This document shows, in pieces, positions 1,680 to 20,136 of a stretch of 20,136 bases of DNA. Position numbers and translations under genes: made by a program. The DNA is taken from positions 1-20,136 of the IMG/VR virus record IMGVR_UViG_3300011116_000142; one strand, written 5' to 3'. The stretch comes from a virus. Each line of letters starts with the position of its first letter. Position 1 is the stretch's first letter. Below the pieces are notes generated by a model, which did no database searches, had not been told where the DNA came from, and worked only from the letters and a program-made list of their open reading frames with translations.

Positions 1680-2782
1680 TGGGATTATTCGATAGATTTC
1701 GGGCAACACAACAAGAAAATCCAGTTGATGTAGCTGCTGCACTTTCACCATATAACGCACAGCAATTAGTTGGCGGAATTTTATTTGGAACTACAACTGC
1801 AACGCGTGAACAATACATGGCAATACCTGCCGGAGCGCGTGCAAGAAATATAATTTGTTCAACAGTCGGATCTTTACCAATTGAACAATATAATCATTTT
1901 ACAAATGAACACATAAGACCAAACCGAGTAATTATGCAACCAGATCCAAGAGTTGCAGGATCAGCAATTTATTCATGGATCGCTGAGGATCTTTTACTTT
2001 ACGGCGTTGCTTATGGAATGGTAATGGATGCTTATGCAGCCACAGATGCTTCAAGAATTAGAGCATGGACAAGAATTGCTCCGGGTCGAGTATTTGCTTC
2101 ATTAAATGGTAACTCAACAGAAATTGAGTATTACACAGTTGACGGAAAGCGAGTGCCACCATTTGGATTAGGTTCGCTAATTGTATTTAACGGATTAGAT
2201 GAAGGAATACTTAATAGAGCAGGTCGAACAATTAAAGCTGCTGCATCATTAGAGCAAGCTGCTGAAATGTATGCAAAAGAGCCTATGCCACAAATGGTAT
2301 TAAAGTCAAATGGCACAAATTTAACTCCAGAGCGAATCACAAAGTTATTAGAGTCTTGGAAAATATCAAGATCAACAAGATCAACTGCATTCTTAAATGC
2401 CGATGTTGAATTACAGGCTCTAGGATTTGATCCGGCTAAATTACAATTAAATGAAGCTCGCCAATACCTTGCTTTAGAAATCGCAAGAGCATCTGGCATT
2501 CCAGCATCATTCGTATCTGCTGAAACTACCAGCATGACTTATTCGAACATGACAGCCGAAAGAAAAGCACTTATTGACTTTTCATTACGACCAATTTTAA
2601 CTGCAATTGAACAAAGATTATCTCAAGCCGATTTCTGCCCTAACGGAATTGAAACTCGATTTGATATTGATGATTTCTTGCGTGGCTCAGCATTAGAGCG
2701 AGCGCAAGTCTATGAAATCCTAAACCGCATTGGCGCGATGAGCGTTGAGCAAATTCAAGAGGAGGAGGACTTAATCCGATGA
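1679..2782 (+). CDS. Portal protein (copy 1)
   Basis: Forms the dodecameric portal ring at the capsid vertex through which DNA is packaged and ejected (HK97-type portal family). The protein begins MGLFDRF, a common portal N-terminus, and has the conserved segment ARARNIICSTVGSLPIE near residues 50-65, followed by typical portal stem and wing sequence. It is 367 aa from ATG 1679. An in-frame ATG at 1661 would add six residues, but it has no ribosome binding site and overlaps the candidate -10 box. The C-terminus EQIQEEEDLIR is encoded by GA-rich DNA (about 2758-2770) that also supplies the ribosome binding site of the next gene; the stop overlaps that start (ATGA). It lies between terminase and capsid genes, the usual head order. 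Confidence 0.9.
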   Translation: MGLFDRFRATQQENPVDVAAALSPYNAQQLVGGILFGTTTATREQYMAIPAGARARNIICSTVGSLPIEQYNHFTNEHIRPNRVIMQPDPRVAGSAIYSWIAEDLLLYGVAYGMVMDAYAATDASRIRAWTRIAPGRVFASLNGNSTEIEYYTVDGKRVPPFGLGSLIVFNGLDEGILNRAGRTIKAAASLEQAAEMYAKEPMPQMVLKSNGTNLTPERITKLLESWKISRSTRSTAFLNADVELQALGFDPAKLQLNEARQYLALEIARASGIPASFVSAETTSMTYSNMTAERKALIDFSLRPILTAIEQRLSQADFCPNGIETRFDIDDFLRGSALERAQVYEILNRIGAMSVEQIQEEEDLIR

Positions 2783-4314
2783 AGATTAATTTTCCAATAA
2801 CACTAACCGCAGCTGATTCAAAAAAGAGAACCTTAACTGGTCGAATTGTCAGTTGGGATGAGCAAGGTTCTACCAGCGCAGGATTAACAGTATTTGAAAA
2901 AAATAGTATTGATTTCTCAAAACCAATTAAATTATTACTTGAGCATGATCGTACTCGACCAATTGGCAAAATGATTGATGTAACAGCTGATGAGAATGGT
3001 ATTGAAGCCACATTCAAAGTGGCAGCAACAATCGCTGGTGATGATTCATTACTAGAAGCTGCCGAAGGTTTAAGAGATGGATTTTCAGTTGGTGTAAAAA
3101 TCAACGAATGGAAAAATGAGGAAGGCGTGCTAAAAATCAAATCAAGTTTCTTACAGGAAGTCAGTTTGGTCACTGAGCCCGCCATCGACACAGCTCGCGT
3201 CACAGAAATAGCAGCGAGCCAAACACCAGAGAATTCCGAAGCAACCGCTGAGGAAACCACAACAAAGGAGAACAAAGTGTCAGAAATTACTTCTGAGGCT
3301 CCTATCGCAACCGAAGCGGTAGAAGCGACACAGGCTCCAGTTGTAACAGCCAACTACATGGCATACACAAAGCCACGCGTTGATACAAATGTTACAGCAG
3401 GACAATATGCAGCAGCACAGATTCGTGCGATTCAAGGCGACAACGATGCACGCGATCTAATTGCAGCATTAGCAATTGGAACAGTTTCAGAAAACACAGG
3501 AATGGTTCCACCAAATTATTTACGCGATGTTATTGGCGTAATTGATTCATCAAGACCATTTATCGATAGCATCGAGCGCGCACCGCTCCCTGCAAGTGGC
3601 CTTAAGATTTTTACTCCTGTATTAGGAGCACGGGCGATTGTTGGACAAACAGCAGAGGGTGTTGAATACGCATCTCAAGATACAGCTGTTACTTTCCAAG
3701 AGGACAATATCGTCAAGTTCGCGGGCGCAAATGTGTTTAATCAAGAGGTCTTGGATAGATCAGACCCTAGCATGTTAGACCTCCTTATACGCGAGTTGGC
3801 TGCATCTTACGCACAAAAGACTGATGCTTATGCTGCAAACATTGCTGCACAAAATTCAGCTGCATCAAGTGGAACAACAATTTACAAAGCAGTTGCAAAA
3901 GGTATTGCAGATGCTTACGGCGTAATGCGTTTTACACCAAACAACTTGTTAGTTGCACCAACTGGTGGCATGGACTCAATTGATTATTCAACCTTGCTTG
4001 GCGAAGTTGATGACAATAAGCGCCCTCTATTTTCAGCAGCAGCACCACAAAATGCAGCTGGTTTAATTACTCAGGGTTCTACAAACGGAACAATTGCAGG
4101 ACTTAATCTCGTAGTTGATCCAAATTACACTGGAGATAATGCTGGTAATAAGGCTGCTCTAGTTTACCCATCAGCAGCAATGAGATTCCATGAGTCTGGA
4201 ACATTCGAGATTCGTGCAAATATCGTTGCTAACGGCCGTATTGAAATTGGTCTATACGGATATGTTGCAGTAGTTAATCGCTACCCAACAGCCTTCCGTG
4301 CACTAAATATCTAA
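2779..4314 (+). CDS. HK97-type prohead protease fused to major capsid protein (copy 1)
   Basis: One 511-aa frame joins two head functions. Residues 1 to about 147 are a prohead serine protease of the U35/S78 type, with candidate catalytic His56 (LLEHDRT), Ser103 (DGFSVG) and Glu127 (QEVSLV). A disordered Glu/Thr-rich linker (about 148-195) follows, then an HK97-fold major capsid protein to the C-terminus, including RPLFSAAAPQNAAG and the final LYGYVAVV strand. The GAGGAGGAGG ribosome binding site lies in the portal gene end and the start overlaps the portal stop. Protease-capsid fusions are known in small actinobacteriophages. An in-frame GTG at 3277 with its own ribosome binding site could make free capsid protein. 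The protease half resembles copy 2 closely, the capsid half does not. Confidence 0.92.
   Translation: MKINFPITLTAADSKKRTLTGRIVSWDEQGSTSAGLTVFEKNSIDFSKPIKLLLEHDRTRPIGKMIDVTADENGIEATFKVAATIAGDDSLLEAAEGLRDGFSVGVKINEWKNEEGVLKIKSSFLQEVSLVTEPAIDTARVTEIAASQTPENSEATAEETTTKENKVSEITSEAPIATEAVEATQAPVVTANYMAYTKPRVDTNVTAGQYAAAQIRAIQGDNDARDLIAALAIGTVSENTGMVPPNYLRDVIGVIDSSRPFIDSIERAPLPASGLKIFTPVLGARAIVGQTAEGVEYASQDTAVTFQEDNIVKFAGANVFNQEVLDRSDPSMLDLLIRELAASYAQKTDAYAANIAAQNSAASSGTTIYKAVAKGIADAYGVMRFTPNNLLVAPTGGMDSIDYSTLLGEVDDNKRPLFSAAAPQNAAGLITQGSTNGTIAGLNLVVDPNYTGDNAGNKAALVYPSAAMRFHESGTFEIRANIVANGRIEIGLYGYVAVVNRYPTAFRALNI
3264..3279 (+). promoter_or_regulatory. Internal ribosome binding site and GTG start for a free capsid protein (copy 1)
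   Basis: AAAGGAG (3264-3270) lies six bases before an in-frame GTG (3277-3279, codon 167 of the fusion). Translation from here would give a 345-residue protein starting MSEITSEAPIATEAVEA and carrying the whole capsid domain without the protease. Copy 2 keeps the arrangement at 18645-18658 although the flanking codons differ (AGGAGG, five-base spacing, GTG, then a Ser codon). This would supply many capsid subunits per protease by nested translation, as an alternative to cleavage of a fusion. Use of the start is inferred. Confidence 0.6.
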
Positions 4315-4327
4315 TAGTTTAACTGAG

Positions 4328-4376
4328 TGCCTGGGGTTGCTCCCGATCTCAGGCATCCATTAATGGGAGTAAGGAG
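4328..4376 (+). promoter_or_regulatory. Pseudoknot-like RNA element between capsid and connector genes (copy 1)
   Basis: In the 67-base gap after the capsid gene, TGCCTGGG (4328-4335) pairs with CTCAGGCA (4348-4355) in an 8-bp stem with one G-U pair. The 12-base loop GTTGCTCCCGAT contains CTCCC (4340-4344), complementary to GGGAG (4365-4369), immediately before the AAGGAG ribosome binding site (4371-4376) of the connector gene. Copy 2 has an identical loop, a stem with a compatible pair change, and a 9-base connecting loop of the same length but different sequence. There is no U-run, so it is not a standard terminator. It may control connector translation. I do not recognise it as a named RNA family. 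Confidence 0.6.
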
Positions 4377-4381
4377 ATGAC

Positions 4382-4954
4382 ATGCCAACCATAATTACAG
4401 CTTCCGAGTTGCGATCTGTGCTTGGTGTGTCATCTTCCTTGTATAACGATGCTTACTTAAACCAAATTATTGATACAGCAGAAACAGTAATTCTGCCAAT
4501 GTTAGTTACATTCAAGAGCCCTATTCAAAAAGTCGTGCTGACTGATAATGTCGCCACTTTCACTACACTAGGCATACATGAATTTACCGAAGGACAATCA
4601 GTTGTCATTACAGGATGCGGATCACCATACAATGGAACAAGAACAGTACTTGCAGACAATCTTGGCGCATATACCTTCTCAGCTGCAATCACAAATGCCG
4701 ACATCATCGAAGCAAATGTTATTCCAAGTGGAGTTGCCACTTTATCTACAGCATCAACTTATATTGGAAACGCAGCTGTTCAATCAGCCGTCTATACAGT
4801 TTCAGTCGAAGTTTTCCAAGCAAGATTAGCAGGTGGCGGTCAGATAGAAGGCGTTGATTTTACAGCCACACCATTTAGAATGGGTCGATCATTATTCAAT
4901 AAATGCGTTGGCTTACTTGGTTCATACATGGATACAGATAGCATGGCTCAATAA
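4382..4954 (+). CDS. Head-tail connector (gp6-like adaptor) with inserted beta domain (copy 1)
   Basis: A 190-aa protein directly after the capsid gene, with the usual adaptor helices at its N-terminus (ITASELRSVLGV and YNDAYLNQIIDTAETVI, residues 6-37). In adaptors of this kind the helical bundle docks on the portal ring. A beta-rich segment, about residues 45-120 (SDNVATFTT-like, VVITGCGSPYNGT), is inserted before the closing helices (VSVEVFQARLAGG, RSLFNKCVGLLGSY), making it longer than a minimal adaptor. The ribosome binding site AAGGAG is five bases before the ATG. The first 40 bases of the gene are identical in copy 2. The assignment rests on position and helix pattern. Confidence 0.7.
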   Translation: MPTIITASELRSVLGVSSSLYNDAYLNQIIDTAETVILPMLVTFKSPIQKVVLTDNVATFTTLGIHEFTEGQSVVITGCGSPYNGTRTVLADNLGAYTFSAAITNADIIEANVIPSGVATLSTASTYIGNAAVQSAVYTVSVEVFQARLAGGGQIEGVDFTATPFRMGRSLFNKCVGLLGSYMDTDSMAQ

Positions 4955-5785: not shown

Positions 5786-6070
5786 ATGCAAAGAATAATT
5801 AAAATTACATATAACTCAGGTGAAGAAGCAGTTTACACCGCCAAAACACCTGAGTTTGTGAAGTGGGAAAGAGAAACAAATAAAACCATTTTAGATATGC
5901 ACGAAAAAAGTGGATTATGGGATTTGATGTTTCTTGCTTATCACGCTTACAAAAGAGAAGCTGGTGGAAAGCCAGTAAAATCTTTTGATAATTGGATCGA
6001 AACAGTATCGGAATTTGATACAGTTAAAGATGGTGATGCAGACCCAAAAGTCACCAAGCAGGAAGCCTAA
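5786..6070 (+). CDS. Tail assembly chaperone G (zero-frame product)
   Basis: A 94-aa soluble protein between tail tube and tape measure genes, the position of the lambda G chaperone that coats the tape measure during tail assembly. The N-terminal strands (IIKITYNSGEEAVYTA, residues 4-19) and the KWERETNKTIL and WDLMFLAYHAYKREAG helices are typical of actinobacteriophage chaperones. GGGAG precedes the ATG. Most ribosomes should stop at TAA 6068-6070. A fraction can slip at CCCAAAA 6043-6049 to make the longer GT protein. The two chaperones together are expected to bind the tape measure. Confidence 0.8.
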   Translation: MQRIIKITYNSGEEAVYTAKTPEFVKWERETNKTILDMHEKSGLWDLMFLAYHAYKREAGGKPVKSFDNWIETVSEFDTVKDGDADPKVTKQEA

Positions 6071-6183
6071 GTAGATTATTGGTTGAGTTGGCAATAGCCA
6101 CACAAATACCAATGAGCGAATGGGTTGAAGCAAGCGACATTTTGACAGCGATAGAAGTATTGGAGCAGAGGTATGGCAAATGA
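5786..6183 (+). CDS. Tail assembly chaperone GT, made by -1 frameshift
   Basis: After the slippery heptamer C-CCA-AAA (6043-6049) the -1 frame is open from 6037 to TGA 6181-6183. It encodes a T domain with SRLLVELAIATQIPMSEWVE and DILTAIEVLEQRY, the pattern seen in chaperone C-termini of other actinobacteriophages (small helical domain with a conserved xPxSEW turn). The fused product would be 132 aa: 88 codons in frame 0 and 44 after the shift. The T segment has no sensible start or ribosome binding site of its own, which supports frameshifting rather than an independent gene. The GT end overlaps the start of the next gene at 6173. Confidence 0.82.
6043..6049 (+). promoter_or_regulatory. Programmed -1 ribosomal frameshift site CCCAAAA
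   Basis: The heptamer fits X-XXY-YYZ in the zero frame (C-CCA-AAA), so both tRNAs can re-pair after slipping back one base (CCC, AAA). It lies 18 bases before the zero-frame stop and inside the only window where both frames are open (6037-6070). I saw no strong downstream stimulatory stem. Confidence 0.8.
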
Positions 6184-18146: not shown

Positions 18147-19723
18147 GTAAAACATTGAAGATCAATTTCCCAATAACACTAACCGCAGCTGACAGTCGCA
18201 AGCGCACTATGTCCGGCACAATTGTGTCTTTTGATGAAAAAGGAATGACAAGTGCTGGTGCAACAGTATTTGAGAAAGGCAGCATTGATTTTAGTAAGCC
18301 TGTTAAATTATTGCTAGAGCATGATCGCACTAGACCAATTGGCAAGATGGTTGATATATCAGAGGATGCAAAAGGCATTTACGCAACATTTAAGATTGCA
18401 GGAACAATTGCTGGTGATGACAGTATGTTAGAAGCAGCAGAAGGATTACGCGATGGTTTTAGCGTTGGCGTAGTTGTAGATGATTTTGATGCTAACAAAG
18501 GTGTAATGACTGTTAAAGCATCTCGACTTATGGAAGTTAGCCTTGTTGCTGAGCCAGCAATTGATAGCGCAAGAGTTTCAGATATAGCAGCAAGTGAAAC
18601 ACCAGAAAATTCCGAAGCAACCGCTGAGGAGCAAACAAAAACACAGGAGGACATTGTGTCAGATACACAAACAGCTCCTATCGCGACCGAAGCGGTAGAA
18701 GCTACAAAATCTGAGCCTGTGGCAATACAAGCAAATCACCCAGTTGCTTACACAAAGCCACGCTCACCAATTAAAACACAAGCTCATTTCTTAGAGCATT
18801 CAGTTAAAGCATCTATGGGAAATCGTGACAGCGCAGAGTGGGTAGCACATGCAAAGGCTGAGGATGCAAAAATGCTTACAGCAGCCGATGACAGCTTCAC
18901 AACTAACCCAGCATTCAAGCCAACACAATTTGTAACAACAGTTGTTGATACACAAATTGGTGCACGCGGTGCAATTGATGCAATTGGAACACGACCATTG
19001 CCACGCGCTGGAATGACTGTTTCATTTCCAAAAATTACCACTTCTGGAAGCGTTGAGGAAAAGGGTGAAGGTGCTGCACCATCAGAAACAGGAATTGTTT
19101 CAAGTTATGTTGATGCAACTGTCAAAGCCTACAAAGGCTTACAACGCTACTCTGTTGAGATTTTAGATCGCGCAGATCCAAGTTTTTATCAGGCAATGTT
19201 GGAAAATATGCGAAGAGTTTATGCTCAGGCAACTGAGGCTGCGGTAATTGCAGAATTAACATCAGGTGGAACACAAGGAACTGCACAAGCCGCAGATCTT
19301 GATGGAATTGTTGCATTTGTGAAAACAGAAACACCAGCTGCATATCTTGCAACAGGTGAGTTAGCAACACGCTACATTGCTGGAACATCACAATGGGGCT
19401 TGTTAATTGGCGCACAGGACAGTTCAAAGCGACCAGTATTCTCAGCAGTTAATCCACAGAATGCTGCCGGCGCAGTTTCACCATTATCACTACGCGGAAA
19501 TGTAATGGGTCTGGACCTATATGTTTCAAACAAAGCAGTTTCCACTTCAATTGATGAGAGCGCATTTATTGTTGTGCCATCAGCTGTTGCAATTATGGAA
19601 AGCCCAGTTTTACAACTTTCTACCAACATCATTACAACTGGCGAAATTGAGACAATGCTTTACGGCTACCTGGCTGTTAAGACACTTGTTGCCGGTGGAG
19701 TTAGACGCTTTAACCTAACCTAA
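18143..19723 (+). CDS. Prohead protease fused to major capsid protein (copy 2)
   Basis: A 526-aa fusion. The protease part keeps LLEHDRTRPIGKM (catalytic His), DGFSVGV (Ser) and MEVSLVAEPAID (Glu), and is similar to copy 1. The linker keeps TPENSEATAEE and PIATEAVEAT nearly exactly. From about residue 205 the capsid part departs: an added N-terminal arm (FLEHSVKASMGNRDSAEWVAHA) and different core, with only scattered matches such as RPVFSAVNPQNAAG and LYGYLAV. It is still an HK97-fold capsid by these landmarks. It may represent an exchanged or fast-evolving capsid domain in a conserved frame. An in-frame GTG at 18656 could give free capsid. Confidence 0.9.
   Translation: MSKTLKINFPITLTAADSRKRTMSGTIVSFDEKGMTSAGATVFEKGSIDFSKPVKLLLEHDRTRPIGKMVDISEDAKGIYATFKIAGTIAGDDSMLEAAEGLRDGFSVGVVVDDFDANKGVMTVKASRLMEVSLVAEPAIDSARVSDIAASETPENSEATAEEQTKTQEDIVSDTQTAPIATEAVEATKSEPVAIQANHPVAYTKPRSPIKTQAHFLEHSVKASMGNRDSAEWVAHAKAEDAKMLTAADDSFTTNPAFKPTQFVTTVVDTQIGARGAIDAIGTRPLPRAGMTVSFPKITTSGSVEEKGEGAAPSETGIVSSYVDATVKAYKGLQRYSVEILDRADPSFYQAMLENMRRVYAQATEAAVIAELTSGGTQGTAQAADLDGIVAFVKTETPAAYLATGELATRYIAGTSQWGLLIGAQDSSKRPVFSAVNPQNAAGAVSPLSLRGNVMGLDLYVSNKAVSTSIDESAFIVVPSAVAIMESPVLQLSTNIITTGEIETMLYGYLAVKTLVAGGVRRFNLT
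18645..18658 (+). promoter_or_regulatory. Internal ribosome binding site and GTG start for a free capsid protein (copy 2)
   Basis: AGGAGG (18645-18650) lies five bases before an in-frame GTG (18656-18658, codon 172), giving a product that begins MSDTQTAPIATEAVEAT and keeps the whole capsid domain. The upstream and downstream codons differ from copy 1, yet site, spacing, GTG and following Ser are kept, which points to function. Confidence 0.6.
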
Positions 19724-19732
19724 TAATGGTCA

Positions 19733-19782
19733 TGCCTGTGGTTGCTCCCGATCACAGGCAGTCGAATATGGGAGTTAAGGAG
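19733..19782 (+). promoter_or_regulatory. Pseudoknot-like RNA element between capsid and connector genes (copy 2)
   Basis: TGCCTGTG (19733-19740) pairs fully with CACAGGCA (19753-19760), loop GTTGCTCCCGAT as in copy 1. CTCCC in the loop can pair with GGGAG (19770-19774), then AAGGAG (19777-19782) leads to ATG 19788. Compared with copy 1 the seventh pair changes from G-U to T-A, and the 9-base segment between stem and GGGAG is replaced except for its last AT, while its length is kept. Confidence 0.6.
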
Positions 19783-19787
19783 ATGAC

Positions 19788-20136
19788 ATGCCAACCATAA
19801 TTACAGCTTCCGAGTTGCGATCTGTGCTTGGTGTGTCATCATCCTTGTATAATGACGCTTATCTAAATCAAATTATTGACACAGCAGAAACAGTTATACT
19901 GCCGATGCTTGTTACCTTCAAAGCACCTATTCAAGCGGCATCATTGTCAGACAATGTTGCTACATTTACGACATTAGGAATACATGAATTTACCGAAGGA
20001 CAATCAGTCGTCATCACAGGATGCGGATCACCTTACAACGGAACAAGAGCGGTGCTGGCAGATAATCTTGGACAATATACCTTTTCGCAATCGATCACTA
20101 ATGCCGATATACTCGAAGCTAATGTCATCCCATCCG
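19788..20136 (+). CDS. Head-tail connector (copy 2), cut by the window end
   Basis: The first 116 codons of the copy 2 adaptor gene, about 90% identical in protein to copy 1. The opening 40 bases are identical to those of copy 1, and the preceding ribosome binding site region also matches. Differences concentrate in the inserted beta domain (APIQAASLSDN, GQYTFSQSI). The gene is open to the last base; its missing C-terminal third is outside the window. Confidence 0.7.
   Translation, partial: MPTIITASELRSVLGVSSSLYNDAYLNQIIDTAETVILPMLVTFKAPIQAASLSDNVATFTTLGIHEFTEGQSVVITGCGSPYNGTRAVLADNLGQYTFSQSITNADILEANVIPS

Follow-up and report, generated by a model that had tools for sequence, protein, structure and literature searches.

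The window analysed here is the whole 20,136-base IMG/VR record, on whose + strand a protease-capsid fusion gene (2779–4314; stop codon 4312–4314) is followed by an adaptor (connector) gene (4382–4954). The two are separated by 67 nt, whereas no other large gap occurs in the head and first tail genes, and this interval holds an element of 42 nt that begins 13 nt beyond the capsid stop codon. Read directly, copy 1 of this element and the bases after it (4328–4376) have the layout TGCCTGGGGTTGCTCCCGATCTCAGGCA-TCCATTAAT-GGGAG-T-AAGGAG. They comprise a hairpin S1 (4328–4355) with a stem of 11–12 bp (4328–4338/9 with 4344/5–4355) and apical CUCC(C); the loop CUCCC (4340–4344), proposed as the 5' strand of a pseudoknot helix S2; a connecting loop L3 (TCCATTAAT, 4356–4364); GGGAG (4365–4369), the proposed 3' strand of S2; and the Shine-Dalgarno (SD) sequence AAGGAG of the adaptor gene (4371–4376), which lies outside S2. 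Copy 2, from a second, related phage in the same record, reads TGCCTGTGGTTGCTCCCGATCACAGGCA-GTCGAATAT-GGGAG-TT-AAGGAG (19733–19782, + strand), with S1 at 19733–19760, CUCCC at 19745–19749, GGGAG at 19770–19774 and AAGGAG at 19777–19782, and stands before a second adaptor gene cut by the record end (19788–20135). Against a covariance model of the element, copy 1 scored 69.0 bits (4328–4369; E = 7.5e-17) and copy 2 scored 62.5 bits (E = 5.5e-15). The initial annotation had proposed a pseudoknot-like RNA from a comparison of these two copies, and direct reading recovers the features it listed: a stem pair changed from G-U to U-A, an identical 12-base segment, CUCCC/GGGAG complementarity in both copies, a 9-nt connector equal in length but different in sequence, and a gap of 1 or 2 nt between GGGAG and the SD sequence. 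Because the coding DNA downstream also agrees at 89% of positions, the two window copies alone are weak evidence of structure.

Two related phages are represented in the record: the first supplies about 15.4 kb and the second the following 4.7 kb or so. In this second part the genes for HNH, terminase, portal, protease-capsid and adaptor appear again, with nucleotide identities of roughly 70–89%; several near-full contigs of the phage group measure 15.1–15.9 kb, and the joining most likely arose through chimeric assembly in the HNH region. At the record end, within the HNH reading frame, lies a near-perfect inverted repeat (1–104; 49-nt arms, 92%), probably an assembly or amplification artefact. 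It gave spurious microRNA matches in Rfam, and with a permissive E-value the search of the window produced spurious matches only, mainly of microRNA models on this terminal palindrome. Farther downstream, the frame at 5786–6070 is extended in the -1 frame by an ORF of 48 residues (6037–6183), with CCCAAAA in the overlap (GACCCAAAAGTC); the region at about 6040–6183 looks like the usual tail-assembly-chaperone frameshift 5' of the tape measure gene.

The gene downstream of the element is assigned as a head-to-tail adaptor by synteny with Decurrovirus, and the evidence from its fold is weak: the AF2 model of the 190-aa product has a pLDDT of 61, and its best Foldseek matches are phage neck/tail-barrel proteins at E-values of only 0.2–0.9. 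Sequence searches with the product gave no match in PHROG or Pfam and none of significance in the PDB. Its N and C parts are helical and enclose a beta-rich insert (residues 52–118; 4535–4735) that is possibly Ig/FN3-like and that, judged by length, the Decurrovirus adaptor (118 aa) lacks. On the other side of the element, the capsid parts of the two phages (3265–4311 and 18640–19720) diverge strongly, whereas similarity is far higher in the protease part and in the adaptor; it seems that capsid modules have been exchanged just 5' of the RNA element. Across the family, the capsids preceding the element fall into five clusters, about 29–46% identical over the last 220 residues, which nevertheless share hairpins. 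In isolated portal relatives (Decurrovirus Kels and Maggie; Rhodococcus phage RRH1) the capsid gene and the next gene are separated by 3 nt, with no element between them.

In candidate stretches of IMG/VR, the adaptor protein has at least 592 relatives; the top 80 were retained, and 80 more came from a search with a diverged query, for a total of 160 loci gathered by the adaptor protein alone and blind to the motif. The upstream region was contained in 151 of them, and every one of these (151/151) carries the full element, with 12/12 standard pairs and GGGAG 8–10 nt later. Pattern scans of IMG/VR supplied further copies; after merging of identical contexts, 203 distinct copies remained, all on IMG/VR phage contigs with the same adaptor gene downstream. 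An adaptor start was recognised 3' of all but two of them, one of which lies at a contig end while the other had itself been found via its adaptor. The element always lies 3' of the capsid stop codon and 5' of the adaptor SD sequence, and the covariance model detects a single copy in each genome fragment, apart from the joined window with its two, at scores of 44–70 bits on the + strand versus at most 14 bits on the minus strand. The carriers are small (about 15 kb) siphovirus-like phages, probably with Actinobacteria as hosts. Cellular genomes yielded a single relative, a contig of 4.7 kb assigned to a Bacteroidetes MAG, which is probably phage as well.

The family consensus is UGCC-NNNNNN-UGCUCCCG-NNNNNN-GGCA, followed after 8–10 nt by GGGAG. 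Covariation was evaluated on 54 distinct sequences at 12 nested positions (648 pair cells), and all 648 cells hold standard pairs. This 100% pairing compares with a shuffled mean of 88% (0/500 shuffles) and with 29–44% in slid controls, and the covariation score is 0.356 as against 0.111 after shuffling. Five stem pairs show changes on both sides; pair 5-24 occurs as UA, AU, GC and CG, and pair 7-22 as GC, GU, UA, AU and CG. Placed on the adaptor gene tree, these states require at least 47 changes at pair 6-23 and at least 74 at pair 7-22, counts that recombination inflates but within which many independent events likely remain. Three further pairs, 9-20 (GU/AU/GC), 10-19 (UA/GC/UG) and 11-18 (UG/UA; a scan of IMG/VR at this pair found three contigs with U-A in place of U-G), fall within what had been described as a 12-base loop. 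Since these positions are paired or covary, the stem extends to 11–12 bp and the loop shrinks to 4–6 nt: the segment is indeed identical in both window copies, but covariation makes most of it stem and leaves a true loop of about CUCCC. The mid-stem covaries freely and is flanked by invariant islands, namely the basal four pairs (UGCC/GGCA, unchanged in 54/54 sequences), the loop and GGGAG. A full IMG/VR scan with the class-1 loop, 9-nt L3 and GGGAG kept returned no variant with a changed stem pair 2-27. The conserved G-U pairs (9-20, 11-18) form on the + strand only, which argues for a + strand RNA rather than DNA. Judged from these sequence comparisons, S1 is a real, covariation-supported RNA structure, and the proposal of a conserved folded RNA 5' of the connector ribosome-binding site is upheld by covariation together with the 151 of 151 motif-blind loci.

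The evidence for the second helix is of another kind. CUCCC and GGGAG are each present in 203 of 203 distinct copies, and the L3 that leads from the hairpin to GGGAG, variable in sequence, is 9 nt long in 158 copies, 8 nt in 40 and 10 nt in 5. The distance from GGGAG to the hairpin is 8.8 ± 0.44 nt, whereas that to the start codon is 14.2 ± 2.5 nt (range 12–20); given standard deviations of 0.44 versus 2.5 nt, it is the hairpin rather than the start codon that positions GGGAG. That GGGAG itself serves as the SD sequence of the adaptor can be rejected, since it is too far from the start codon at 12–20 nt, unfixed relative to it and accompanied by a separate SD. IMG/VR contig scans (with T required after the stem) found no family member with a loop base 3 other than C, and full IMG/VR scans in the class-1 context found none with a loop base 2 other than U; all that these scans and the one of pair 2-27 gave was chance matches, or no sequence at all. 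Homologues that had lost the stem or the CUCCC/GGGAG complementarity, which would have spoken against the original proposal, were sought in the IMG/VR scans and the 151 motif-blind loci, and none was found.

Complementarity, constant hairpin spacing and feasible geometry together argue that CUCCC and GGGAG likely pair into an H-type pseudoknot. On the other hand, no compensatory change in S2 occurs across the family, and because both strands are invariant, the pairing is unproven by covariation; the pseudoknot of the initial annotation is therefore retained as probable rather than proven. Its predicted dimensions are S1 of 10–11 bp, L1 of 1–2 nt (G12), S2 of 5 bp and L3 of 8–10 nt, and, judged from known pseudoknots, loops L1 and L3 of such lengths could feasibly span the stems. 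A G12-C17 pair, also invariant, would leave CUCC as the loop and is in competition with S2. Freeing the loop costs the hairpin about 1.6 kcal/mol, and the S2 duplex contributes -7.0 including initiation; by this rough estimate the pseudoknot would be marginally stable without tertiary contacts and could be switched. A switchable fold is suggested both by this marginal S2 and by the SD-like GGAG held within GGGAG. GGGAG may be invariant because it serves twice, its GGAG pairing both with the loop and with 16S rRNA. CUCCC and GGGAG could also each be kept for another reason, for example protein binding.

The position of the element relative to the two flanking genes suggests a function. The distance from the capsid stop codon to the hairpin is 7–18 nt in 173 family members, with a mode of 10 nt (82/173). 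By toeprint geometry, a ribosome whose A site holds a stop codon extends about 10 nt past that codon, which puts the first S1 pair approximately at the entrance of the ribosome channel. On the 3' side, S2 is 1–11 nt from the SD sequence, which is itself mostly 4–6 nt from the start codon, and the end of the element is inside or at the edge of the 30S footprint on the adaptor start. We propose, with moderate confidence, that the element is a cis-acting translational control of the adaptor relative to the capsid on the late mRNA. A ribosome that terminates on the capsid gene would have its leading edge roughly at the start of the element, whose end would fall within the area covered by a 30S subunit at the adaptor start. 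The folded element would keep capsid ribosomes from reinitiating and make the adaptor start less accessible to 30S subunits, so that adaptor initiation would be uncoupled from the heavy capsid ribosome flow and adaptor output held low. The fold might be opened by 30S/S1 or by some other factor. Per virion, the adaptor is present in about 12 copies and the capsid protein in hundreds. The variable distance between S2 and SD does not enforce precise docking, and the unchanged basal UGCC/GGCA pairs exceed the needs of a plain roadblock, which hints at a specific partner. Structure 5' of an SD sequence can alter initiation by a factor of over 100 (PMC3936740). Whether the element represses or activates is a matter of guesswork; the T4 gene 32 pseudoknot beside its ribosome binding site represses (PMC535899).

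Several other explanations were weighed against translational control of the adaptor by the fold itself. A phage or host RNA-binding protein could recognise the UGCC/GGCA base, the GCUCCC loop and GGGAG as an operator and thereby repress or activate adaptor translation, for which T4 gp32 acting on the pseudoknot of its own mRNA is the model (PMC535899). Invariant islands beside a freely covarying mid-stem form the pattern of sequence-specific recognition, and the absence of variants at loop bases 2 and 3 or pair 2-27, in the contexts covered by the full IMG/VR scans, fits it as well; a candidate binding protein was not identified in the 15 kb genome, however, and we consider such an operator rather unlikely. 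The capsid protein, one of the binders suggested earlier, is disfavoured in particular by the capsid diversity upstream of shared hairpins, since identical hairpins follow capsids that are only about 30% identical over the last 220 residues (about 30–33% between the clusters concerned). Less probable again is that S2, just 5' of the SD, promotes adaptor initiation or reinitiation in the manner of ColIb-P9 repZ: the S2-SD spacing is loose (1–11 nt), and a booster is less expected for a protein generally required in far fewer copies than the capsid. The topology relative to the SD is nonetheless that of the established repZ case (PMC8383071). We give the same low standing to a role in mRNA processing or stability, in which the hairpin would shield the 3' end of the capsid message and mark a cleavage site while the CUCCC/GGGAG pairing would be incidental. 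A stable hairpin directly 3' of the stop codon of the most abundant protein, with covariation shown for the hairpin only, would suit such a role, which however leaves the invariant loop and the fixed GGGAG-hairpin distance unexplained and lacks a U-tract or terminator-like site. Neither an intrinsic terminator nor an internal promoter was found, and no terminator-like site is present at 4000–4700.

That the element serves to extend the capsid protein through frameshifting or readthrough is very improbable, even though an S1 of about 11 bp gives the element a geometry like that of coronavirus-type pseudoknots (PMC7618472). The stop-to-hairpin distances (7, 8, 9, 10 and 12–18 nt) are out of phase, stops occur in all three frames before or inside the element at most loci, and the spacers inspected show no constant slippery heptamer; with neither a consistent phase nor an open frame, a -1 frameshift or readthrough signal is largely refuted. 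The strong capsid variation 5' of the element might also suggest that the site between the capsid and adaptor modules matters only as DNA, as a palindrome or a hot spot of recombination, without RNA function. This reading is hardly tenable, given conserved G-U pairs that are sensible only as + strand RNA and compensatory changes that preserve 648 of 648 pairs, and as a sole explanation the DNA palindrome is refuted by that covariation and those G-U pairs.

As the initial annotation had supposed, no named RNA family fits: among the 4227 families of Rfam 15, none gave a match overlapping 4328–4376 or 19733–19782, even at E ≤ 5. The element likewise had no match in 50,697 GenBank phages, plasmids gave none either, and a literature search found no description of it. 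As proposed, it works like known leader pseudoknots and belongs to no family tested here. The SAM-II and preQ1 class riboswitches are H-type pseudoknots near an SD sequence; the present element, in contrast, has no Rfam match at E up to 5 and no downstream metabolic gene. The repZ pseudoknot is part of an antisense-controlled replication leader, whereas for the present element, different in sequence and sizes, an antisense RNA is not indicated. With the ColIb-P9-type repZ activator pseudoknot (PMC8383071) it shares a position just 5' of the next gene's ribosome binding site. The T4/RB69 gene 32 autoregulatory pseudoknot (PMC535899) likewise lies 5' of the SD in a dsDNA phage mRNA and serves translational control, but there a pseudoknot of about 28 nt is followed by a less structured gp32-binding region of more than 40 nt with UUAAA repeats, whereas the present element has 42 nt, adjoins the SD, precedes another gene and has another sequence (homology compared by Rfam only). 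The rpsO (S15) leader pseudoknot (PMC3858243) is also located at a ribosome binding site, where 30S/S1 must melt the fold; it takes in coding bases, while the present element leaves SD and start codon outside. The coronavirus-type (IBV) frameshift pseudoknot (PMC7618472) has a similarly long S1 (about 11 bp), short L1 and short S2, but unlike it the present element has no reading frame through it and is not a frameshift signal.

We tentatively suggest, as a possibility somewhat less secure than translational control as such, that the element represents an RNA family not described before. It would be an H-type pseudoknot that can be switched and whose recognition core is fixed; in a large group of small uncultured phages it would sense a ribosomal or phage factor and set the ratio of capsid to adaptor. 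At 42 nt, it lends itself easily to reporter and probing tests. That one mRNA yields capsid and neck proteins in very unequal amounts is usually ascribed to SD strength. In the structural operon of a phage group found only in metagenomes, a covariation-supported structured RNA, kept in every member between these two genes, offers a testable alternative to that explanation.
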